From the IMG/VR virus record IMGVR_UViG_3300048015_000065, positions 1 to 21,259 of that record: DNA of 21,259 bases. One strand, 5' to 3'. Both the position numbers and the translations under genes were made by a program. Shown in pieces: positions 2,997 through 21,259 of this stretch (position 1 is the first letter of the stretch; each line of letters begins with the position of its first letter). The notes below the pieces were generated by a model. It was given only the letters and a program-made list of their open reading frames with translations, searched no databases and was not told the origin of the DNA. The stretch is from a virus.

Positions 2997-4013
2997 CTAG
3001 CTGCGCTTGTCTATTTGGCGTGCTTGTAGGGACGTGGGGTATAAATCGTCGTTTTTACTCACAGCTTTTAATTGAGCTGCAGTGGCACCCTTAGGCTTAG
3101 TGCTTTGCTGCCTTTGTTGAGCTTGTTGTGCCTGAGAGGCTATTACTGCCTGAGCGGCGTAGGGAGTCATTGTAGAATCAAGGGGTTGGCCTATTAAGTG
3201 GCTTAGGCCTATTCGTTGCGTATAGGACAGCTTTTGAGGGTTCTTTACATCTATAATCTTTTCCATTACCTTTTGGTTTATTAGGTTAACCGCCTCGGGG
3301 TGTATGGTGCGTAGGGTCATTATGTCTGGGGGTGTTAGATTGCCTTCTTTTGCGTATTTAAGCACCAGGAGAGGGTTGTTGGCTATATCCAGCTGTCTGT
3401 GGTAATTAGCTTCAGAACCTTTACCAGGAGACATTAAACGGTCAAGAGGGGCGTTCTGGACGCCTTTTGGCTTTATGGAGCTAAGGTAACTCAAAGCAGG
3501 AACCACATGGGCTGCTAAGGCCACAGCATGGTCGGGCAGCGTTTCCCCTAAGTTGCCTCCCAATTGCTCCAGCTGGCTTGGATCCATTTTAAGGCTTTCT
3601 ATACGCTCAGAAAGCTTTTCTCTAGCAGCTTCGTCAGGCTCGGAGTGGATCTTCTCGTTGTGGAGAAAACCTGTAACATGACTTTCAAGGCGTTTAGAGC
3701 CTTTATGGGCCTGTTTTCGGTATTCTTCTAAAGAGTTCTCGGAATGGCCTAGTTTGGTTAGCTGGCCTAGAAGGCCTTGCGAGGCTCCGTAATGGGCTAG
3801 AGCCTCTTTTGGGTTCGTTACGAACTTTCTGTTAGCTTCGACTTCGCCACCTTCAGCGTAATGTTTACAGCCCTCTTCATGGAGTTGATCGGAATCGCAA
3901 TATTGGACCAAACCGCCGTTGGACATAGCTTCGCCACAGTGACAATTCGGATGAGATTGTCCGTAACTTTTACAACTAGGGTTTCTACAAACCCACGGTG
4001 GGAATATGGCCAT
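2997..4013 (-). CDS. Internal/structural protein with Cys/His-rich N-terminal module (338 aa)
   Basis: The first 60 residues hold six cysteines and several histidines: C9, C14, H21, C24, H25, C26, C39, H45, C49 and H51. The arrangement C-x4-C-x6-H-x2-C-x-C, then C-x5-H-x3-C-x-H, looks like a small zinc-binding module. It is followed at once by HYAEGGEV (51-58). That combination is familiar from phage internal or virion-associated proteins. The rest is helical and charged, with a Gln/Ala-rich stretch near 290-310 (AQQAQQRQQS) and no catalytic motif. It follows two larger candidate ejection proteins that carry the same AEGGEV-type motif, so I infer a DNA-ejection or internal virion role. The ATG lies inside the end of the upstream 63-aa membrane protein gene (29-nt overlap in another frame), with AAGGA 11 nt upstream. 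Zinc binding is inferred. Confidence 0.65.
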   Translation of the reverse strand: MAIFPPWVCRNPSCKSYGQSHPNCHCGEAMSNGGLVQYCDSDQLHEEGCKHYAEGGEVEANRKFVTNPKEALAHYGASQGLLGQLTKLGHSENSLEEYRKQAHKGSKRLESHVTGFLHNEKIHSEPDEAAREKLSERIESLKMDPSQLEQLGGNLGETLPDHAVALAAHVVPALSYLSSIKPKGVQNAPLDRLMSPGKGSEANYHRQLDIANNPLLVLKYAKEGNLTPPDIMTLRTIHPEAVNLINQKVMEKIIDVKNPQKLSYTQRIGLSHLIGQPLDSTMTPYAAQAVIASQAQQAQQRQQSTKPKGATAAQLKAVSKNDDLYPTSLQARQIDKRS

Positions 4014-4176
4014 TATCTTTGTGTTCCTTGCAAATGCATTCTTTGTGGATTTCCTTACCTATTGCTCGCCCAATTACTTTAAAAGGCCAACCAAGTAAGC
4101 TAGAAATTCCAGTAATATATAAGTAGCTTATTCCCAACAGAAGGATTGCGGTAGCAACGTTTTCTAAGAATTCCAT
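3985..4176 (-). CDS. Small single-span membrane protein (63 aa)
   Basis: The chosen start is the ATG at 4174-4176, because GGAGG lies 5 nt upstream. Two earlier in-frame ATGs at 4188 and 4194 have no such site. Residues 5-29 (from ENVATAILLLGISYLYITGI onward) form one clear transmembrane helix. The tail is basic, then contains C-x-C and nearby histidines (KECICKEHKDNGH), possibly a small metal-binding patch. The end overlaps the next gene by 29 nt in another frame. Size and a single span are compatible with a holin or a membrane-associated ejection accessory. No endolysin gene is nearby, so I cannot call it a holin. The strong ribosome site and hydrophobic profile support it as a real gene. 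Confidence 0.6.
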   Translation of the reverse strand: MEFLENVATAILLLGISYLYITGISSLLGWPFKVIGRAIGKEIHKECICKEHKDNGHIPTVGL

Positions 4177-4219
4177 AATTGCCTCCATATACACAGTATC
4201 TTCTATAATTGTGTAGGCA

Positions 4220-5896
4220 TTATGGTGTATTCACCATATCATACTTTTTAGCTACGCCCTTTTTAGCGGCGTTTTTCAAAGTTCCTTCAATGTTGGATCT
4301 TCCTTCGAACATTTCGTTTCTATTCTGACCACTTACTGGGGATGAGGAAACTAGCATCTTATCAACCTCGTCTTGACTCATTTCGGGGAAAGCTACTCGT
4401 ATATCTCCTCTAACCCGTGCCAAGGCTCTTTTATAAGCTTGTACTTTGGGATCTCCTGCAGAAGCGTAAGATAGAACCCCGCTAATAGCATCACCTAGTA
4501 GGGGTATTCCTGAGATCTTGGCTCCCTTTTCCAATCTGGTTATCCCTGTCGCATTGTCTGCCATGGTTTTATAAGAATCCCTAAGATTAGATAGAACAGA
4601 ATCATACTGATCGAGTTTGTTATATTGATCCTTAAGGTCTCCATAGTCAGCTTCAGCAAGCGGGTTCATTTTAGGGTTGGCAGCAAAGAACTTAGATTTA
4701 GCGTCAGGGGTTAATAGGGGTTTAATAGGGGTATCTAAAGGGTCGTGATAGTCTTGGGGATTGTACGATGACTCGGGCTGCGGTTGTCCAATTGGTGTAG
4801 GACCTTCACCTAAAGTGGCTTGAGGTTTTTGAGTGGCCTTCTGGGTTGCAGGGGATAGATTTGGCCCCCCCGCTTGATGTATGGCTTTTGATGCGTTGTA
4901 GAACGTCGCCATTTGTATAGCTCGTTCCGCGGCTTTGGCTCCAGCGACCTGATTATAGGCCGCAACGGCTGTCGGGGTTCCAAGTTTAAGAGCTTGATTT
5001 TTTAAGGCTGCTAAGAGTTGGTCGTTTACAGAAATTTTAGAAGCAGCTAACGAAAGTAAACGGTTTCCGGTTAATTTATCATAGGCATCAACCAAGTTTT
5101 TTTGGTTTCCTGTATTTTCCTCTTGGGCCTTCATTTCACGTTCTGCCATTGCATTAAACACGTCTAGAGCGGGATTATGGGTCGAGCCCAGCTGTCCTGC
5201 ACCAATTCCACCAAGAATTAATCCCAAGCCGTTTAAAATGCCTGGTTTGCGGGGTGTAATGGGATTTTTAGCCAAATAGTCTCTATAGTTTTCTATCTCT
5301 TGGGCTTGTAATTCCGGAGCAGCTTTTTGTTGGTCAGCGATAGTGCCTAATTTGTTAGCGTTTTGTTCTACTAACGGTTGTTCTTTTTGGGCTAAAGCTG
5401 CCTCTGTAGCAGCTTTTTGTCTTTCTCCTAATAGTTCTTGTTGAGGAGTTCCAATCGCGTTCTGAGAAACATCTAATTGGGGAACATTGGGTAAAGAAGG
5501 ATCTGCGGCTAGAGGAGCATCAGGGGTACCTTCGTCTAAATAACGTCTATCTCCCCTATCTGCCACAATTTGTACCAACATTTTGTGGTGCTCATCTTTA
5601 GCAGCGGCTATACTTTTCTTGGCGCTTTTTGTGTCTCCCGCGTCACTATCAGCTTTAGCTTCACGCGCCTTTTCACCAGCTTTTGAAACACCTTTAGGAG
5701 AATCTTCATATTCAGCTTTATGAACACCTTTTACTTCTCCACCTTCTGCTAACGGAATTAGTTTAATTTGAGCCTTTAAAAGCTTTGGAAGAGCGTTATG
5801 GGCAACTACAATCTTATGGCCCTTTTCGTGCTCAAATGTGCTTGTTTTATCGTCACAAGCAATTTTTTTCATCTTTTTCAAATCTAAAAGGTCCAT
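4220..5896 (-). CDS. Candidate internal virion (DNA ejection) protein (558 aa)
   Basis: Long hydrophilic protein, mostly helical and rich in Ala, Gln and Lys. Near the N-terminus it has a GHKIVVAHNALPKLLKAQI stretch (26-44) followed by LAEGGEV (49-55), a combination I associate with phage internal virion proteins. The middle (about 150-330) is low-complexity Ala/Gln/Glu sequence with a short Gly/Leu-rich hydrophobic patch (ILNGLGLILGGIGAGQLG). The C-terminal third is more globular and helical (from about 395 to the end). No lysozyme or peptidase motif is evident. Its start overlaps the stop of the preceding gene as TAATG, with AAAGGA 8 nt upstream. Position after the large tail protein and the companion 442-aa protein fits the ejection-protein slot of short-tailed phages. 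The role is inferred. Confidence 0.6.
   Translation of the reverse strand: MDLLDLKKMKKIACDDKTSTFEHEKGHKIVVAHNALPKLLKAQIKLIPLAEGGEVKGVHKAEYEDSPKGVSKAGEKAREAKADSDAGDTKSAKKSIAAAKDEHHKMLVQIVADRGDRRYLDEGTPDAPLAADPSLPNVPQLDVSQNAIGTPQQELLGERQKAATEAALAQKEQPLVEQNANKLGTIADQQKAAPELQAQEIENYRDYLAKNPITPRKPGILNGLGLILGGIGAGQLGSTHNPALDVFNAMAEREMKAQEENTGNQKNLVDAYDKLTGNRLLSLAASKISVNDQLLAALKNQALKLGTPTAVAAYNQVAGAKAAERAIQMATFYNASKAIHQAGGPNLSPATQKATQKPQATLGEGPTPIGQPQPESSYNPQDYHDPLDTPIKPLLTPDAKSKFFAANPKMNPLAEADYGDLKDQYNKLDQYDSVLSNLRDSYKTMADNATGITRLEKGAKISGIPLLGDAISGVLSYASAGDPKVQAYKRALARVRGDIRVAFPEMSQDEVDKMLVSSSPVSGQNRNEMFEGRSNIEGTLKNAAKKGVAKKYDMVNTP
4221..4238 (-). other. Hairpin at the 3' end of the 558-aa gene
   Basis: TATGGTG and CACCATA form a perfect 7-bp inverted repeat with a 4-nt loop covering the last codons and part of the stop of the 558-aa gene. 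No T-run follows, so a transcription terminator is unlikely. It could be an mRNA stability or translational-coupling element ahead of the membrane protein gene, or simply chance. Confidence 0.3.
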
Positions 5897-7224
5897 TATT
5901 TGAGTCCTTTCTTGGCGAGGGACTTCAGAATGAATAGCCGAGCCTTATCGGGGCTCAGTTTGTTCTCAATATGTCGCGGTAAGACTTCTCCACCATCTTC
6001 AAGGGTAACTGGAATAGTGTCGTTCTCTAGGCTATCCCCTTTAACCTTAGCTTGGCCTTTAAACACAGTGCCAAGTTTTAGGGGGTTGGCTCCGTGCTGG
6101 ACTTGTTTAACCTCTTCTGGGTTTAAATAACGTTCGCCAGGAGAAACCATGGCCTTTACGCTTGAACTTTTACCACCTTGAGCAAAATAATTAGCTACGT
6201 GAGAGTCGTGTAGGCCTTCACAATACCCGCCGCGAGCTAGTCCTAAGCTACTTGCAACACTGCCTATTCCAGCTCCTAGAGATTTTAGCCCCATGGGGTC
6301 TTGTTGAGCTTGGCCTTGTGGATTCATGTTTTGTGCGAGAGAACCCAAGAATTGAAAAATGTTTTGACCATTTATTGTAGGATTTGCCTCCGCTCCGCCC
6401 GCGGTTGCTCCTGCTGTGGCTCCTGTAGCGGCTCCAGCTCCTACGGTTCCACCTGCGTCATACTTTTCTACCTCACCACCTTTATAAAAAATTGAACCAA
6501 GAATACTGCCAGCGGCTCCAAACAAACCTCCTGCGGTTTTTTGATTAGCCGCTGCGTTTGCTTGTGCGGTTTGCGCATTAATGCCTTGGGCTTGAGCGTA
6601 GTTATTAACGTTGGTGGCGTTCTGAGCCGCATTTGCTCCCGTTGCTGTTCCATATACACCAGACTGTACACCTTGTTCGCCTAAACCTTGTTGGGCTATT
6701 TGGTTTTGAAGAGCTGCTTGGGCGTTTATCGCATTAAGCTGTTGTTGGCTCTGTAGCGACGCGGCTTGGCCTACTGCACCTTGTTGAGTGGCTGCGCCCT
6801 GTTGGCCCGCTTGGCGGGCAATTAAACCGACATTAGAGGCTGCTCCACGTTGACCTGCTTGTAAGGCTGCCGTGTTTGCTACGTTTTGGCCTGTGGCTTG
6901 GTTTAACATTGTCTGAGCGGGGTTGGGTCCCGCTCCTGTAGAGATTTGACCTAATTGCCCGGCTAACCCTTGCTCAGCTCCTACCGCACCATTAACAATT
7001 TGGCCGTTTTGAGCTGCCGCTCCTGAGGTGTCCACTGTGGGCGCGTAATTTAAGTTTGTTGTAGGAGCTAATTGCGCTGAATAGCCACTCTGAGGGGTCA
7101 ATAGACCTGCAAGGCCGCCGTTAGCTGTGTTGCTTGTAACACCACCTGCATCGTAGTGCTTTACATGCTCAAGTGCTAGCTTGGTTTGCTTGTGTACAAA
7201 TTCCAATTTTTTCTGGAGATCCAT
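5896..7224 (-). CDS. Ala/Gln/Gly-rich candidate ejection protein with repeated GG motifs (442 aa)
   Basis: I prefer the ATG at 7222-7224 (MDLQKKLEFV), because AAGGA lies 4 nt upstream and the site abuts the stop of the previous gene. The frame is open to an earlier ATG at 7251, which would overlap that gene and lacks a ribosome site. The protein begins with a short helix and then HYDAGG (23-28). A long Ala/Gln/Asn/Gly-rich, probably flexible helical region follows. KGGEV...KYDAGG comes next, then ARGGYCEG and FAQGG, and finally a conserved-looking C-terminal region with VSPGERYLNPEE, AKVKGDSLENDTIPVTLEDGGEVLPR and a basic end. That C-terminal pattern is one I have seen in phage internal and ejection proteins. 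It partners the 558-aa protein through a TAATG overlap. The function is inferred. Confidence 0.62.
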   Translation of the reverse strand: MDLQKKLEFVHKQTKLALEHVKHYDAGGVTSNTANGGLAGLLTPQSGYSAQLAPTTNLNYAPTVDTSGAAAQNGQIVNGAVGAEQGLAGQLGQISTGAGPNPAQTMLNQATGQNVANTAALQAGQRGAASNVGLIARQAGQQGAATQQGAVGQAASLQSQQQLNAINAQAALQNQIAQQGLGEQGVQSGVYGTATGANAAQNATNVNNYAQAQGINAQTAQANAAANQKTAGGLFGAAGSILGSIFYKGGEVEKYDAGGTVGAGAATGATAGATAGGAEANPTINGQNIFQFLGSLAQNMNPQGQAQQDPMGLKSLGAGIGSVASSLGLARGGYCEGLHDSHVANYFAQGGKSSSVKAMVSPGERYLNPEEVKQVQHGANPLKLGTVFKGQAKVKGDSLENDTIPVTLEDGGEVLPRHIENKLSPDKARLFILKSLAKKGLK

Positions 7225-7231
7225 AATTTCC

Positions 7232-10200
7232 TTAAGAGAGTCCAGCTGCATTTGCAGCTCGAATGGGGCGGGTGGCTTTTTTGAGGATTATGTTACAATT
7301 GATGCCACTTAATGTGAGTCCCGCTCCTGGGAGGGTTCCATAGGCAGGATTAAACACTTCCTGAACCGTGATTTGAAAACTTTGGCAAAGTTGTTGCTTA
7401 GAGTGTATGCGCCATTGCTCTAAATTACCAGGAGCGCCTACAGGAGTCGGTACACCAAACGGACTTGGAGCTGAACTGCTAAAGTTTTGAGGTGTGATCA
7501 ACACCGCAGTGGCTGGCGATGGGTTGTAGTCGTAAGCTACCTTAACCCACAGTGAATGTGGGCTTAAGTATTGGCCCAAAAGGTAACACTCTCGGAACCG
7601 TTCATAGCCTTGAAGGGACGCTAGGTTTAGCCAGCTGGTTGTAAAGCTTAAAAGGACCGGGTTACTACCGTCTAAATACTGATTTGGTGTTTCTTGGTAA
7701 ACTAAACCCTCTGCGTTGATAAATGTGTGTAGATTTTGGTAAATAGTGGAAGAGGTGCCTGGAATACCTACAAAAGTCCCCCATTGTCCGTAGAAGTAAT
7801 CAAACATGAGTGTTATACCTGTATCCAAGGTAAACCGTACTTGATTGGTTTCGGGGACGTTTATAGCACTCAACACTGTTGGCTGGGTATCCGTGCCAAC
7901 GTCAAATTGTGTGTACTGTTCTACGGCTGCGCCGATATATTGCGTAGATAAATCTCTCCCTAAGAGCCATATTCCTTTATCGGACTGGAACATAAGGCCT
8001 TGGGGCATAAACACAATTGATTGCTGGTTGGCACAACCTACAGTTGACGTGATAAAAGTTGGGTTAGAATAACCGTTATTGGCTCCGGTGTTGTCAGGAC
8101 CGGTTCCGTTTATGTAATAAATTGCATTATTCTTAAAAATTATGAGCTTGTCGTCCAGGGGGCAAAGAGCGGTTATATTTCCCGTACTGCCTTGAGCTGC
8201 GGTTGTAGGGGATACATAAAATGTAAAGAGATCAGACCATTCTACCGGCACGTTTTCGATGTTTTGTTTTGAAAACCACAAAAGAGTTGGATCTTCTGCG
8301 TCAACAAGCCACGCTCGAGTATCGAATAGGCTTAAAATGTTGCTTGCAGGTGGATTAATATCTTCCACCACTCCACCGGTTGTATAAATTATGTTATTTC
8401 CTAAAATTTGAGCATCGGATTGACCATCTACAATAGTTACGTAATCCGTTGTGGTGGAATTTAGAGTCGGTTGTATGATCGAAGTTGTTTCGTAATAGAC
8501 CTGGTTAGCCACACTCCAGCGATAGACCTGAATTTTGACAGGATTGGCTATTTTGTAGGTTAAACGGAGTGTGGGGACGCTGTAAGTAAAGATATAATCT
8601 GTTCCACCGCCTGAAGTAGTAATGGCAACGGGAATGCTGGGGGCACTTCGGTGCTGGTTTCCTTGATTGTCCACCCATGAATAAATGGCTTGTACATAGT
8701 AAGCGTCTGTATTGGTAGAGCCATCGGGCTGAGCTGCAACATTGCCCACGAATGTGATAGTCTCTGCAGTATAACTGCCTGTAGCTGCTAGAGATAATGT
8801 AACCGTAGTGGCTGTTATACCTGTAACTAAAGATCCTATCGCAACTCCTGTTCCAGACACAGTCATACCGATTCCAATTCCAGCTACTGAGGAAAGGGCG
8901 GTAATAACTTTGCTGCCTGATGTGGTGGTGCCCGTGGGAGTTACGGAGGAAGTTGAAGTAGATACCTCTACGGAATCTGGCCACACAAAAAAGTTCTGTT
9001 CTACAGGCAGATATCCGTCGTACATCAAACCGAATCCGCCACTTGTTTGCAAAACAGAAGCTATTTCAATCGTATCAATATTGGTACTATTTAGTTCAAT
9101 CGATGCTAGATTGATTCCAGTTTGAGAATAGACAGGAGGAACCTGTAAATTGATGCTTTGAATACCTCCCGGGGCCTGGGCCTCAATGAAGTCCTTGTAC
9201 AAATAAGGAATCTGGGCCACATTGTCGCTAGACAAGACACCAGGGAGACCTTTTGTTAAGTAGCCAGCGCCATTTTCATAAGCAAGTTTTGCTATAATTA
9301 CAGGGGAACTGGTTAGACTTGCTCCGCTCAATAAAAAGTATGTGTTTTGGTAAGGGCTTTGAAAAGCTGTTAAGAAATACGTTTGACCTTTAACTATAAA
9401 GGCCTTTGATGCTAATCCAACACTTCTAATTATATTGACCACTGAACCGACGGTGCCTGCAGATGAGCAGGTTACTGCGTTTATGTAATTGGAGGGAATG
9501 CTTGAATCATACCCATACATATTAGAAACTTCGTAATATATTGTGCAGGTGCCATTTAAGGCGGCCGATGTGATGTTGGCGATTGTTACTGTGGTTATAA
9601 TTTCTTGAGGAGAAAACACAGTGGCTAAGTTTAGGGCTAATCCCAAGGTGTAGCCTGTGCTAGTAGCGCTATTATAGAAACTTACGTAGATGGGTGGTCC
9701 AGATTGAGTCGTGTCTACACAAAGTGACATTAAGGTTGCTGTGTAACTCGAAAAAGTAACAGCTGTGCCTGTATTCAAGGTGGAATCTAGGTAATTTACT
9801 TTTACTGCCTGACCTCCAGATGTGGTATCATAGGCGTAATATAGTTTATTGTTTGATACGATCCCGTCCCAAGACCCTGCAGAAGAAGGAACATAGGAAG
9901 ATGCTAGGTCAGCGTTAGTTGTGACATTGGAAGGGTTATTAATGTTTATGGCAATGTACTGTAAATGATTTGCCGATGAGATTACGTTTGTGAAAGCTAC
10001 TATAAAATAGTTATCTAGTAAAAATACACGTAAAGAACCTGAAACTGTTCCGGAACTGACGGGTATTGCTGTAGGTTGTACAACATTTTGTCCAGTCGTG
10101 GAGTCAGATATAACGTACTTGTAGGAAGTTGTAACATTGTTTGATTCTGTGTATGCAGTACAAGCTAAACCATTAGGAGCCACAACTATATCACATTGCA

Positions 10201-10531
10201 CCTGGTTTAAGCTGTTTCGTATTAAAGGCAACGTAGATACTTCTACGGGGGTAATAGAACCCTTTGTAACCCAATTCTGGGACCCTTCGGAATATGCTGC
10301 CACTGTAGGCCCTATTGCCGTAAGGTTGCCATTTAGAGTGGTTAAGTAGCTATAAGATGTGTTTGGTAAAGAAGGTAGGGTGTCGTAACCGTTTCTTTTT
10401 TGTAAAAGACCCCCCTTATCAAATATAGAGTTTTGTAAAACAAGGAATTGCCCTACAGGTACCTGCCATGGGTCGGTTTTAGTATTTAAACCTTCGGCAA
10501 AATTAATATTTACGGTTTGGGGTTGGGACAT
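7232..10531 (-). CDS. Large tail protein, tail-tube/nozzle or stabilisation type (1099 aa)
   Basis: Largest gene in the window. The N-terminus has the pattern FAEGLNTKTDPWQVPVGQFL then LQNSIF..GGLLQKRNGY (11-49). It is typical of large podovirus tail proteins annotated as stabilisation or tail-tube B-like, which form the distal short tail. The protein is beta-rich with many aromatic and Ser/Thr/Asn residues, consistent with propeller or sandwich folds. Around 530-595 it contains a module with the pattern TTTSGSKVITALSSVAGIGIGM...GTGVAIGSLVTGI that recurs in unrelated phage structural proteins and is probably an inserted beta domain. No membrane or catalytic motif is visible. Only 3 nt separate it from the upstream fibre gene, and its ribosome site is weak (GAG about 10 nt upstream), so coupling to the upstream gene is likely. 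Confidence 0.72.
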   Translation of the reverse strand: MSQPQTVNINFAEGLNTKTDPWQVPVGQFLVLQNSIFDKGGLLQKRNGYDTLPSLPNTSYSYLTTLNGNLTAIGPTVAAYSEGSQNWVTKGSITPVEVSTLPLIRNSLNQVQCDIVVAPNGLACTAYTESNNVTTSYKYVISDSTTGQNVVQPTAIPVSSGTVSGSLRVFLLDNYFIVAFTNVISSANHLQYIAININNPSNVTTNADLASSYVPSSAGSWDGIVSNNKLYYAYDTTSGGQAVKVNYLDSTLNTGTAVTFSSYTATLMSLCVDTTQSGPPIYVSFYNSATSTGYTLGLALNLATVFSPQEIITTVTIANITSAALNGTCTIYYEVSNMYGYDSSIPSNYINAVTCSSAGTVGSVVNIIRSVGLASKAFIVKGQTYFLTAFQSPYQNTYFLLSGASLTSSPVIIAKLAYENGAGYLTKGLPGVLSSDNVAQIPYLYKDFIEAQAPGGIQSINLQVPPVYSQTGINLASIELNSTNIDTIEIASVLQTSGGFGLMYDGYLPVEQNFFVWPDSVEVSTSTSSVTPTGTTTSGSKVITALSSVAGIGIGMTVSGTGVAIGSLVTGITATTVTLSLAATGSYTAETITFVGNVAAQPDGSTNTDAYYVQAIYSWVDNQGNQHRSAPSIPVAITTSGGGTDYIFTYSVPTLRLTYKIANPVKIQVYRWSVANQVYYETTSIIQPTLNSTTTDYVTIVDGQSDAQILGNNIIYTTGGVVEDINPPASNILSLFDTRAWLVDAEDPTLLWFSKQNIENVPVEWSDLFTFYVSPTTAAQGSTGNITALCPLDDKLIIFKNNAIYYINGTGPDNTGANNGYSNPTFITSTVGCANQQSIVFMPQGLMFQSDKGIWLLGRDLSTQYIGAAVEQYTQFDVGTDTQPTVLSAINVPETNQVRFTLDTGITLMFDYFYGQWGTFVGIPGTSSTIYQNLHTFINAEGLVYQETPNQYLDGSNPVLLSFTTSWLNLASLQGYERFRECYLLGQYLSPHSLWVKVAYDYNPSPATAVLITPQNFSSSAPSPFGVPTPVGAPGNLEQWRIHSKQQLCQSFQITVQEVFNPAYGTLPGAGLTLSGINCNIILKKATRPIRAANAAGLS
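7244..7259 (-). repeat. Perfect 7-bp inverted repeat around an upstream ATG
   Basis: AGCTGCA and TGCAGCT form a perfect inverted repeat with a 2-nt centre, inside the last codons of the 1099-aa gene. It encloses the upstream in-frame ATG at 7249-7251 of the ejection protein frame. If this folds in mRNA, that ATG would be buried, which favours initiation at 7224. Confidence 0.4.
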
Positions 10532-14342: not shown

Positions 14343-15677
14343 TTACTGAGAGAGCTGGACTAAGCAGTTAGCAACTGGTGCATTGCACACTAAGTTACCA
14401 ACAGAGAGTAATTGCATTTGGATACCGTCGATACCATTTCCGACCAACGGGAATCCGATTTCTTCGTACAGACCTTTGTAGGTCAAGAAGTCAACCATTT
14501 TACCGATTGTTTTCAATTTCCACGTTTTCGTGTTCAAGATGAACGCCGTTTGAGCTGGGCAGTTACGATCCTGGACTACGTTGATGGAACCACTTCCGGT
14601 TGGGAGGGTCAACGATTTGAAGGAGATCATGACGTCGTCGCTGATCTTCACATCGATCATTTGATAGACGATTTGAACCGTCAATTGTTTAATTAACGCC
14701 TGATAGGACACTGGATTCACGAGGATGATATCCGCGGGACCGGCTTCGGTACGTAACGCTTCCAATTGGTTAGCCGCGTCAATAAGAGCATCTTGAATGC
14801 TTTCATTGGTTCCGTTGAACACCAATCCAGCCAACTGCTGAGGAGCAGCTGTTCGGTTGACGTTAAAGAAATAGTCTCCCGCGGGTGGGGTACAAATCCA
14901 GGCTTGCAGTCCTGCAATTTTCAACATGTTTGAAGATTGGAGACCGTTTGAAATGAAGTTCACATCTCCCGCTTGTGCGAGATACGGGAAACTTGTAGAC
15001 CAGTTCGTAGGAGTTCCGGCCGCTCCGCCCTGTGTAGCACTGACCGTAATTTGACCGGCCGGGACGTTCACTCCGATGACATACCCGATCGCGTTGCTCG
15101 TGCTCTGTGTGGGGGTCTGACCGGATTTGCTGAAGCTGACTAACGCCATTCCGATAGCGAAATACATGGCTGATTGGGGTTGATCTAGGGTGATAACACC
15201 ACTAGAGATCGAACCTGCACCAAGACCAAAAGTACCGCGAGTGCCTGAACCGTCTCCGTACAACATCAACGCCAAGTCATTGCCAAGAGTCGTGAACGCC
15301 GTTTTAACGTTCAACTCTTGGGCAGGCATGAAGGCCGCTAATTCGCTGTCAGAAGCTCTGAGGAAATCTCCAGAGATTGAGAACAGGGCATAGTTGTTAG
15401 TTCGGGTAACCAAGAATTCTTGGGTAACAGGAGCGGTCTGATTGCTTTGTGCAGTCGAGAAGCTCGCCGAACGGCCTCCCGCAGGTCCGAACACTATTGC
15501 AGGGACTGGGAAGTATTTACCACCCATCATGCTACCGTCAGACGCTTCGTCTTTCGGAATCATGGCTAGGCCTGGGTTATTGTTGTACAGATAGTTTTTA
15601 GCTACCCATGCGTCGTCTGAATACAGTTCTTTTAAAACTGCAATATTAGACGTTGACGTCGATAATTGAGCTGCCAT
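14343..15677 (-). CDS. Major capsid protein, HK97 fold (444 aa)
   Basis: The N-terminal region (LKELYSDDAWVAKNYLYNNN, then AMIPKDEASDG and KYFPVPAIVFGPAGGRSA) and the FLVTRTNNYALFSISGDFLRAS segment resemble the N-arm and early domains of HK97-like capsid proteins of short-tailed phages. The C-terminal half has DALIDAANQLEALRTEAGPADIILVNP, SYQALIKQLT, QDRNCPAQTAFILNTKTWKL and a GKMVDFLTYKG...EEIGF pattern, as in the A-domain and P-domain. The Ser/Thr/Gly insertion (about 180-250) may be a surface loop. It directly follows the coiled-coil scaffold gene, as expected for capsid assembly. The ATG has AAAGGA 5 nt upstream. High expression would be expected, and two stem-loops lie immediately downstream. 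Confidence 0.85.
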   Translation of the reverse strand: MAAQLSTSTSNIAVLKELYSDDAWVAKNYLYNNNPGLAMIPKDEASDGSMMGGKYFPVPAIVFGPAGGRSASFSTAQSNQTAPVTQEFLVTRTNNYALFSISGDFLRASDSELAAFMPAQELNVKTAFTTLGNDLALMLYGDGSGTRGTFGLGAGSISSGVITLDQPQSAMYFAIGMALVSFSKSGQTPTQSTSNAIGYVIGVNVPAGQITVSATQGGAAGTPTNWSTSFPYLAQAGDVNFISNGLQSSNMLKIAGLQAWICTPPAGDYFFNVNRTAAPQQLAGLVFNGTNESIQDALIDAANQLEALRTEAGPADIILVNPVSYQALIKQLTVQIVYQMIDVKISDDVMISFKSLTLPTGSGSINVVQDRNCPAQTAFILNTKTWKLKTIGKMVDFLTYKGLYEEIGFPLVGNGIDGIQMQLLSVGNLVCNAPVANCLVQLSQ

Positions 15678-16661: not shown

Positions 16662-18584
16662 TTAAACAGCGGCCCCGCTCGCCGGACCTACGGGAGCTTG
16701 AGGTGGTGCTGTGGGAGGTAATTGGGACTGGGAAGAAGGTTGTGCTGGGACAGGGGGAGGAGTGGCTTGTTGTTTAAGATTTTGGACCATGGTGAACCAA
16801 TCTCGAAGAGCTTGCATCTTTTCCTCTTCAAGTTGGAGAGTCGCGTAAAGGTTGATGTAGTTAACACACAGTTGAGTAGCCAAATCAGACGGGTCTAGAA
16901 TGAATACATCGGGCGCAATCGAATCAAAGTTTTTGTAGCCGTGGTCTACGATGTCATCGAGGGACTTTAAGATCCGTTCTTCAAGTGCTGCGGCCAATCT
17001 GTCTGATTGTTCTAGATCCGGGAAGTTAGAAAGACGTCTAAATTCTTGGGTAGAGATTTCGCCCGCTGCTAGCATTTCAGAGAGTTTGGCCTGACGGCCT
17101 GCTGGATCATTTGGAAGAGAGCTTTCTTCCATACACTGGACAACGTAGTTGTCTTTAAGTTGGGCTATGGCTTTAAAATCAATTTTTCTAATCCCGTCGC
17201 GGTCCGGAAAAACTGTTTCGTACGATCCTTCTTCTTCAGCTATATCCTTGGCTTCCTCAATCATGAGTTGGGCAAGTTCTACGAAAGAATTCTGATACCT
17301 ACGCTCTAAAGCTGCAAACCGGTCGCTTTGAATGTCCATGAAGGCTCGCTGAGCCTCTCCTGAATTGAGCCCCGCTGGTTTCTCGCCTTGAGCGGCTAGT
17401 GTAGAAATGCCTGCAATTTGATAAGCATTGCTAATGAGCCATTGAATATACTGGTAGACTTCGGGGTTGTTAGCTTGAGCGTTTACAAACTCTGGTTTAT
17501 TACCTCGGTATTTAATTTGGGACCCGACTCGGTTATTAAAAGCTGTCTCCAAAATCTTGGACATTTCGTCTATCAAGATTCTAGGAACAGACATGAGCTC
17601 GTGAGCCTGAGATACCACAATTAGGGTACGGTATAGCTCCATCTGGGTCGGCATGAGGATTTCAGCTAGGCCCTGGGCATACCAGTTAACGGGGTGAGCA
17701 TTGTATGATAGCCGAACGAATGGGAAGTATTTTCGCTTCCAAGGTTCATCAAAAATAACACCGTGGTCGCATATGATAATGTGACGACCGTCAGTAGCGT
17801 CTTTTGAGGACGGTAGATGCCAAGCCTCGATTACTATAATCTGGTCTGAGGTGGTTTCGGATGATCTGGGGGAGTTGTCCACTGTAGCCGCGTTGGCATC
17901 TAGGATAGCCTGGCCGGCCTTTTTGAAATAAGAAAGCAAGGTATCCCGGTCTACTAGCTTCACTTGCAGAAGCTGTGTAGGGCGATCGTAATAAGCATCG
18001 TTAAAATCTGTAAGGAGCTCGGTTTCTAGGACCCGTTCCAGGTGTACTTTAGAGTCTTTGGAAGAAACCTTTAAGAATCCGTTACCTAGGATGCAAGCAT
18101 CTCTAAGGGAAAGAGTATTAAGCTCGTAAGCTTTGGTACGGTATAACTCACCTTGGATAAAGGCGTTTGCCTCTTTAGCAAGTTTACGTTCTTTGTAGTG
18201 CCCACCATCTGTGAGAAAGATGGGTTTGGGTCTATCTTGCGATATACGGCTTACCAGTGTGTCGATGCATGAGTAGGTAACATTGGCAGTAGGGCGACCC
18301 ATGGGCATGTTAGCTGATTGGTCGAGCTTTGAGTTGGCTGCTTGGAAGTAGTTGTAAAGAGGTTTGCCGGAATAAAGACGTGTAAATACAGAAGCCTGCT
18401 GAATACGGTACGCATTGGTTTTCTTTAGATACTCGTAAGTAGCTAAAGTCATTTCAGTAAGTTCTTTATCCGTCTGAGCCGTCCACCACTTAAAGAACGC
18501 AGCTTTAGGTGAGGTCTTTTTAGGACGGCTATCAATAACTTTAGGCGCTACGGCCTCTTCGATGGACCTGGTGGTATAGGACAT
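16662..18584 (-). CDS. Portal protein (640 aa)
   Basis: Long helical protein with portal landmarks: GRPTANVTYSCIDTLVSRIS then QDRPKPIFLTDGG (about 96-128), an RDACILGNGFLKVS strand, LPSSKDATDGRHIIICDHGV, and FPFVRLSYNAHPVNWYAQGL (the wing/clip-like region). A helical stretch follows, with ISTLAAQGEKPAGLNSGEAQ and IQSDRFAALERRYQNSFVEL leading into the crown. The last 35 residues are Pro/Gln/Ala-rich and probably disordered. As a dodecamer it would form the packaging and ejection vertex and bind the adaptor encoded downstream. The length (640 aa) is within the usual range for short-tailed phages. The ATG has no clear ribosome site; a hairpin followed by T residues lies 9 nt upstream. Confidence 0.85.
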   Translation of the reverse strand: MSYTTRSIEEAVAPKVIDSRPKKTSPKAAFFKWWTAQTDKELTEMTLATYEYLKKTNAYRIQQASVFTRLYSGKPLYNYFQAANSKLDQSANMPMGRPTANVTYSCIDTLVSRISQDRPKPIFLTDGGHYKERKLAKEANAFIQGELYRTKAYELNTLSLRDACILGNGFLKVSSKDSKVHLERVLETELLTDFNDAYYDRPTQLLQVKLVDRDTLLSYFKKAGQAILDANAATVDNSPRSSETTSDQIIVIEAWHLPSSKDATDGRHIIICDHGVIFDEPWKRKYFPFVRLSYNAHPVNWYAQGLAEILMPTQMELYRTLIVVSQAHELMSVPRILIDEMSKILETAFNNRVGSQIKYRGNKPEFVNAQANNPEVYQYIQWLISNAYQIAGISTLAAQGEKPAGLNSGEAQRAFMDIQSDRFAALERRYQNSFVELAQLMIEEAKDIAEEEGSYETVFPDRDGIRKIDFKAIAQLKDNYVVQCMEESSLPNDPAGRQAKLSEMLAAGEISTQEFRRLSNFPDLEQSDRLAAALEERILKSLDDIVDHGYKNFDSIAPDVFILDPSDLATQLCVNYINLYATLQLEEEKMQALRDWFTMVQNLKQQATPPPVPAQPSSQSQLPPTAPPQAPVGPASGAAV

Positions 18585-19231: not shown

Positions 19232-19657
19232 TTAGACTTTCTTAAGATAATCCAGCATTGCACTGGATGTGCCCATTGGAGCGCCAAGCTCGTGGGCACG
19301 TTTATGGTAAGTATCAATTCTTGTTAGGTGGCCTTTGGGCATTATCGGTTGGCCGTGGCCTGTTTCTCGGAAGCGGGATTCGTAACGGCCTTGAGTGACC
19401 TCAGGGGTTTCAATGATGAAGATGGGTTTGACTTCAAAGCCGCTAAGGGAGTCTGTGTAAAAGCTTAGTGTAAACGGGGTCTCACAAAGAATGGGTTTGT
19501 TAGACCTTGTGGCCTCCAAGCGGATAGCTTCTACGTAAGTGTTTGGGGTTTTATAACTGTCGTGAGGCACAAAGGTGAAACGGTCGATGAGCTGCTTGGC
19601 TATCCAGGTCTTTCCAGAACCTGGGGTTCCTACTAGAATGTAAATCGTTTTGGTCAT
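19232..19657 (-). CDS. P-loop nucleotide kinase-like protein (141 aa)
   Basis: Residues 5-17 (IYILVGTPGSGKT) are a clear beta strand plus Walker A loop, so the protein should bind ATP or another NTP. D33 in PHDSY, a strand at 55-60 (PILCET) and an Arg-rich lid-like segment (RYESRFRETGHGQ, 91-103) are consistent with a small kinase fold of the adenylate, zeta or polynucleotide kinase type. I cannot choose between these, and it is short for most. Its substrate is unknown. It is the first gene after the strong promoter and a leader of about 120 nt, so it and the two small genes after it should be transcribed ahead of the portal genes. The ribosome site is weak (GAG about 7 nt upstream). Confidence 0.7.
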   Translation of the reverse strand: MTKTIYILVGTPGSGKTWIAKQLIDRFTFVPHDSYKTPNTYVEAIRLEATRSNKPILCETPFTLSFYTDSLSGFEVKPIFIIETPEVTQGRYESRFRETGHGQPIMPKGHLTRIDTYHKRAHELGAPMGTSSAMLDYLKKV

Positions 19658-20487: not shown

Positions 20488-21259
20488 CTATATACGCTTT
20501 GCAAGACGCGCTGCGGCCACATCGTCCATTACGAATCCCGCGTAGTTGCTTTGGACCGTTTCGATACTGTCTCCTAGGCTCTGAGCAATGTCATCAAAGC
20601 TTACACCGCACATCCTAAGGTGTACGGCGTAAGAATGACGTAGAGCATGCCATGTAATTCCGACTCGCACCTTCATGATTAGCCCGACCTTCCGGGTGCG
20701 GAATGCTTTCTTCTGCTCCTCAGGCAAGTTTACCCAAGCCTCCACGAAAGGACGGCATTCGGATATGACTGCGACGTTGCGGGCCTGGTCCCGCTTAGGT
20801 AATCCTATGGACCAGTCGTAGTATCTTTGTTTGTCGACTCGGATTACCGCTCCTGCTTTTCTTATTTCAAAGAGCTCCCCGAACCTGACCCCCGTACCGA
20901 AACTAGTGAGAGCTGCGATACGAGTGATCTCATCTGGGAACTTTATGGCCAAGAGCTCGGACAAACTGATGCGGGTAATCGGCTGTGGGACTTTAAGCTC
21001 AAGGGCAATTCTTTCCTCACAGCCTTTGAACGCAAGAAGCACGTTGCAGCACATAGCCATTCGACGCTGATCGGGAAGCTTGTCAATAGCTTTCTGCACG
21101 TCCTCGATGGGACTGATTCCGATCTCAAGTCCCCCAAGGCCTAGCAGCATTCGGTTCATCGCTCCGAGTAGAGATTCTTTACTACCACGGTGGAGCTTTC
21201 TCCGGTCGTAAACCTTGACGCGCCACAGGGCAAGCAAGTCCAGATTGCGGTCCGCGTAC
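20488..21259 (-). CDS. Tyrosine recombinase / phage integrase, N-terminus outside window
   Basis: The frame is open to the window edge. The first start-like codon in it (TTG at 21235-21237) is preceded by further in-frame residues (YADRNLDL), so the true start lies to the right. Counting from that TTG, the catalytic domain shows box I (TSFGTGVRFGELFEI, Arg 118), a likely beta-hairpin Lys (148, in GLPKRD), box II (HALRHSYAVHL, His 197, Arg 200) and the nucleophile Tyr 232 in SNYAGF. The residue usually His or Trp, nine before the Tyr, is Asp (LGDS, D223). It should catalyse site-specific integration or excision, supporting a temperate phage. No att site or tRNA is visible here. It is transcribed toward the structural genes. 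Confidence 0.85.
   Translation of the reverse strand, partial: YADRNLDLLALWRVKVYDRRKLHRGSKESLLGAMNRMLLGLGGLEIGISPIEDVQKAIDKLPDQRRMAMCCNVLLAFKGCEERIALELKVPQPITRISLSELLAIKFPDEITRIAALTSFGTGVRFGELFEIRKAGAVIRVDKQRYYDWSIGLPKRDQARNVAVISECRPFVEAWVNLPEEQKKAFRTRKVGLIMKVRVGITWHALRHSYAVHLRMCGVSFDDIAQSLGDSIETVQSNYAGFVMDDVAAARLAKRI

Follow-up and report, generated by a model that had tools for sequence, protein, structure and literature searches.

How phages choose the proteins that are loaded into the head and fired into the cell, and how such proteins traverse a narrow channel, are open questions, which are raised here by a locus where three neighbouring genes carry copies of the same short motif. The window, by which we mean the whole stretch of 21,259 bases that was analysed, is an IMG/VR virus record from a podovirus-like phage. 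The genes of its virion module and the sequence features within them, for which window coordinates are given below, are all encoded on the minus strand. They are arranged in the order portal (16662-18584), scaffold-like protein p311, major capsid protein (MCP; 14343-15677) and nozzle protein p1099 (tail tubular B-like, 7232-10531; phrog_511 with E 3.3e-10), followed by p451 (5896-7251), p558 (4220-5896) and p338 (2997-4013), which are the first, second and third gene of a putative ejection set and are called the trio in the following. Elsewhere in the window, positions 20488-21258 encode the C-terminal part of a tyrosine recombinase (weak match to Phage_integrase), which suggests a temperate relative or the end of a fragment, and positions 19232-19657 encode a small P-loop protein that weakly matches the AAA and zeta-toxin kinase families. 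The proteins at 18-1382 and 1614-2582 have an N-terminal stretch in common (SQFLGLPL...PGSPGQIFIA) and are probably paralogous tail appendage proteins.

When isolated phages were searched for close and remote relatives, using the window and four of its proteins, the sole result was a weak match to the nozzle protein in Arthrobacter phages; scans of viral contigs with single sequences gave nothing. A scan of viral contigs with the DNA encoding YAEGGEV, one of the motif copies, returned 120 stretches, 98 of them having the peptide inside a gene, and among these L037 proved to be a true relative of the window with the same gene order. By means of this match and the Cys/His knuckle pattern described below we reached a clade set of 25 genomes (the window and 24 relatives), which are thus chosen by knuckle or motif. 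Since all of the virus records searched (24/24) encode a nozzle homologue, the window and its relatives are regarded as one uncultured clade. A second set of 80 loci was picked only by the nozzle gene, and some of its contigs overlap with the clade set. Compared with T7, the clade genomes keep the order portal-scaffold-capsid-nozzle-trio, and orthologues of p451, p558 and p338 are each present in the 25 clade records. As a separate observation, the major capsid gene was found in two to three pieces, hundreds of bases apart, in G001, G005, G007, G011 and G012 (loci L147, L155/L156, L159/L160, L164/L165 and L174), which is the pattern expected of self-splicing introns or homing endonuclease insertions.

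The trio genes follow the nozzle gene of a portal-scaffold-capsid-nozzle module, the position by which podovirus ejection proteins are recognised, and the corresponding genes of T7 (gp14, gp15 and gp16) and P22 (gp7, gp20 and gp16) likewise come directly after nozzle genes. On the strength of this gene order p451, p558 and p338 are probably virion-internal ejection proteins. At the sequence level the trio differs from the T7 and P22 proteins in having no detectable similarity to them, and searches against PHROG, Pfam, PDB sequences and folds gave no convincing match to gp14, gp15, gp16 or the P22 E-proteins. In T7-like phages a mosaic exchange of domains between ejection proteins has been described, where a peptidoglycan hydrolase moves between gp16- and gp15-like proteins (PMC8954989). 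The motif analysed here is not reported in that review, and neither T7 (4 copies vs 1.9) nor P22 (2 vs 1.9) shows a clear enrichment of it.

The motif has the form [YFM]-A-x-G-G-x-V, i.e. Phe, Tyr or Met followed by Ala-x-Gly-Gly-x-Val. In p338 the second of two Cys/His knuckles is closed by YAEGGEV (3840-3860), and the first is closed by MSNGG (residues 30-34, 3912-3926), a copy that is absent from the preliminary description of this locus. LAEGGEV is found in p558 (5732-5752), while p451 has YDAGG near its N-terminus (7141-7155), a pair formed by KGGEV and a second YDAGG at 6448-6480 (GGEV 6469-6480, YDAGG 6448-6462), and LARGG (6226-6240) together with FAQGG (6172-6186) in the stretch 6172-6240 before the C-terminal module. 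Every copy listed in the preliminary description was found in its place, whereas the length of 442 residues given there for the third protein reflects an internal Met start, the ATG at 7251 giving 451 residues. The three window proteins contain four [YF][AD]xGG and four GGEV, compared with 0.1 and 0.03 in shuffled sequences, and 0/5000 shuffles reached the observed count of either pattern. When all GG pairs of the trio were analysed without assuming the motif, enrichment was seen for F, M and Y at position -3 (4.1x, 3.2x and 2.8x, respectively), A at -2 (2.5x) and V at +3 (5.4x); the same enrichment was not seen around all GG pairs of other proteins. Among p451 orthologues the position of the LARGG and FAQGG copies is conserved, and several have YSKGG and FDAGG paired at the N-terminal YDAGG site.

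It is clear from the loci chosen by the nozzle gene that the motif is restricted to particular genes. It occurs 132 times in 72 relatives of p451 (11.9 expected, 11.1x), 72 times in 61 relatives of p558 (6.7 expected, 10.7x) and 53 times in the p338 family of the 80 loci (6.3 expected, 8.4x). In 80 relatives of the nozzle protein it stays at the chance level (23 vs 18 expected, 1.3x), and over the same loci it is found at 0-0.7x in seven further virion families (MCP, portal, scaffold, p351, p385, p391 and p119) and at 1.7x in unassigned genes (23 vs 13.6 expected). When whole clade genomes are considered, the only carrier besides the trio is the gene upstream of the portal, which has the motif in most of them: 18 genes at this position, three of them terminase genes that each have a single chance copy, contain 47 motifs vs 1.2 expected, compared with 14 vs 22.7 expected in all remaining clade genes. 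The preliminary description had noted the motif at domain borders of otherwise unrelated genes of one set and suggested a signal for ejection proteins. The sharing, the border position and the tie to ejection-protein positions are supported, the last with the gene adjoining the portal as an addition, and the motif withstands the comparison with shuffled sequences by which that description would have been refuted. A conserved gene of 86-90 amino acids adjoining the portal has YSAGG near its C-terminus (L147:18100-18357; matches in G013, G017 and G018). The idea of a general phage motif was tried and rejected: 23 genomes selected by means of a DNA polymerase motif contain 33 motifs vs 42.8 expected; loci around the DNA polymerase gene have 21 vs 15.3 expected.

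The clearest unit bordered by the motif is the double knuckle of p338, which precedes an all-helical domain. Knuckle 1 (residues 9-26, 3936-3989) reads C-x4-C-K-x2-G-x2-H-P-N-C-x-C and knuckle 2 (residues 39-51, 3861-3899) reads C-x5-H-x3-C-x-H, and all six Cys residues of p338 are located within residues 9-49. In nine aligned homologues C9, C14, H21, C24 and C26 of knuckle 1 and H45 and C49 of knuckle 2 are invariant, and the first Cys of knuckle 2 moves position. The trio proteins contain only 0.04-0.25% Cys, and the knuckle cassette therefore holds most of it. Conserved Cys/His ligands with fixed spacing are what is found in zinc knuckles and ribbons, and judged from these ligands the double knuckle probably binds zinc. 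Each knuckle is usually followed by the motif, the MSNGG site holding FAKGG, FAEGG, MAKGG or similar in most relatives. The AlphaFold model has low confidence in the knuckle region and high confidence in the helical domain (residues ~57-260), whose first helix starts at residue 57 after YAEGG. No convincing relative of p338 was found in PHROG, in Pfam or among solved structures.

The knuckle moves between proteins. The pattern CKxxGxxHPNCxC was found in 23 virus contigs, and its carriers belong to the p338 family in 17 genomes (16 and one truncated protein), the p558 family in five (four and one truncated protein) and the C-terminus of the p451 family in one; the two truncated proteins were assigned by position or by near-identity to a full copy. 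In L037 the module is inside the p558 homologue and not at the p338 position. Apart from sharing knuckle and motif, no similarity was found between the p338, p558 and p451 families. No double knuckle was detected in isolated phages at the sensitivity used, and among prokaryote genomes the DNA pattern was found in three MAG contigs only (L144, L145 and L146), whose genomes gave no nozzle match. An initial rule of exactly one knuckle per genome came from knuckle-selected genomes and was abandoned; among the complete trios of the nozzle-chosen set 18/51 carry a knuckle and 33/51 do not, and never are there two per locus. The preliminary description is upheld in that the Cys/His positions are conserved and that the module is a conserved unit, probably metal-binding. 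Its suggestion of a specifically metal-linked motif fails, as most motif copies have no nearby Cys and, while the motif stays, the zinc-type cassette may be missing or sit on another protein. In one genome (G016; L181:8968-10722) a p338-family protein reads, after the knuckle, like a polyvalent-protein ADP-ribosyltransferase (YYHGTDQNFDAF...), apparently a delivered effector aimed at bacteria; it is probably the one match to ART-PolyVal among 35 clade proteins scanned.

Two further cassettes are associated with the motif. After the LAEGGEV of p558 comes a KGVHK-type cassette (5561-5731, the 3' border being approximate), which by BLAST and by eye resembles the cassette of L037 and is not returned by a strict KGVHK profile. 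Such cassettes occur both in p558-family proteins and in the gene that lies upstream of the portal, sometimes as two in tandem, and all ten detected cassettes end in GG, nine of them with a broad form of the motif. The protein p451 has a middle region rich in Ala, Gln and Gly and a C-terminal beta module (5899-6171) composed of two beta-hairpin units, xAMVSPGERYL and KGDSxxNDTIPxxLxxGG, and a C-terminal helix; the second unit was matched in 24/25 clade records and in L109. The strands, hairpins and helix are mostly predicted with pLDDT >80, compared with <50 for the FAQGG linker. In both available models (p338 and the p451 C-terminus) the motif is thus located in low-confidence linkers directly before well-predicted domains. 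Fold searches with the two models gave no significant match, and a kinship of the KGDSxxNDT module with LexA/S24 peptidases was considered by eye.

The best fit to these data, which we place a little below an even chance, is that the motif is a conserved seam or hinge between cassettes that ejection proteins can exchange. The three genes after the nozzle would encode virion-internal ejection proteins built from small cassettes, where the aromatic residue or Met together with Ala would end one cassette, Gly-Gly would serve as a free hinge, and x-Val would start the next. We infer that with such a hinge genes could trade small units that each fold on their own, and that upon ejection these units could thread one after another through the channel of portal and nozzle. 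The double knuckle, as a probable zinc-binding mini-domain present at most once per genome, might then act in an ejected complex common to these proteins, irrespective of which of them carries it. Several observations count against a hinge: the knuckle is modelled with low confidence, some motif copies are located inside Ala/Gly-rich regions with no evident cassette, and the trio has no homology to any known ejection protein. The conservation of an aromatic residue and Val, which a plain hinge does not need, moreover suggests that the motif is recognised by something. A short motif that is restricted to such proteins and located at the seams of moving cassettes can help to predict from sequence which proteins uncultured phages deliver, and offers a starting point for testing whether it functions in loading, hinging or cleavage.

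Recognition is the essence of the main rival to the seam or hinge, which is possible but clearly the less probable of the two: the motif could be a short linear docking or loading signal, docking being among the roles suggested in the preliminary description, that a single virion component binds, be it the portal, the scaffold or one of the ejection proteins, and this binding might, with the same modest likelihood, bring the proteins together at the portal vertex ahead of packaging. The confinement of the motif to the trio and the gene adjoining the portal, the conservation of specific side chains at -3, -2 and +3, the presence of several copies per protein and their location in low-confidence linkers all speak for docking. 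However, the choice of Y, F or M as first residue shows no co-variation between the genes of one genome (permutation p 0.74), and no common reader protein was identified.

Several viral proteases cut GG-type sites, and like those sites and the double-glycine leaders the motif has Gly-Gly preceded by conserved residues. It could be a site at or near which a protease cuts while the virion is assembled or once the proteins are ejected, thereby releasing the cassettes; processing was another role suggested in the preliminary description. We consider such processing improbable. Ejection proteins are processed in other phages, as P22 gp7 is by host OpdA, and in T5 the tape measure is cleaved ahead of the C-terminal domain; however, gp7, the one ejection protein for which a site of processing by the host is mapped, is cut in front of KGG (PMC8402733) and T5 pb2 after Arg1127, and neither cut is shown at this motif. 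Unlike double-glycine leaders, the copies recur within the proteins, and a Pfam scan (E 1e-4) of 68 proteins from two clade genomes found neither a matching peptidase nor any other protease family; MCP and scaffold also have no motif. The scan covered phage-encoded proteins, and a host protease may still act at the GG.

A conserved DNA word acting as a recombination hot spot that promotes cassette exchange is largely refuted and very improbable: the cassettes do move at the seams, but codon third positions at the motif are near background, the sole exception being a bias against GGA-GGN where GGA is avoided at the first Gly, and since synonymous positions vary in this way, selection acts on the protein. 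Coincidence in Gly/Ala-rich proteins, to which the 14.6% Gly of p451 might point, is refuted by the 8-11-fold excess over composition-keeping shuffles and by control patterns (other first residues, shifted GG, GA and AG), which stay near 1x.

Outside the clade, motif proteins match tape-measure, endolysin and virion-structural PHROGs and the Pfam ART-PolyVal (5/95 motif proteins from other contigs) and transglycosylase domains, while neighbours that have no motif resemble portals, capsids, terminases and replication genes; some of the tape-measure matches may come solely from a small GEYVV-type module. In motif-chosen contigs 12-13% of genes at distance 1-3 carry the motif vs ~4-5% beyond 4, a neighbour clustering that is to be read with caution and is the only use made of these loci, since many multi-gene motif loci from the YAEGGEV scan are motif-selected. 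In lambda the motif is found only in gpH, near the C-terminus (FATGG 733, YATGG 778 and FSGGG 848). This tail tape measure is a tube-internal ejected protein, as proposed for the trio, and is not found by the p451 module profile. In HK97, by contrast, the copies are in other proteins and not in the tape measure, and because of this departure from the lambda pattern the wider reading is a lead only. That reading, which we find rather unlikely, is that [YFM]-A-x-G-G-x-V is a transferable address tag of several unrelated phage lineages marking proteins for particle loading and ejection; motif-bearing cassettes could then, with equally little confidence, be added to any of the internal proteins without loss of delivery. 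If true, it bears on how cargo proteins are recruited.

Polyvalent proteins are likewise multidomain and are believed to be delivered along with the DNA (Iyer et al. 2017, PMC5512222), and the main text of that paper makes no mention of glycine, linker or zinc ribbon. They differ from most clade trio proteins, which have no known enzyme domain, and neither a conflict nor an enzyme domain, by which polyvalent proteins are recognised, was found in the window trio. Finally, short neighbouring genes in other phages have a common, tag-like C-terminal tail, SASKRADGIAxKGKTKGK, after a GG motif (L003, L005, L017, L028, L049, L058, L096 and L121).
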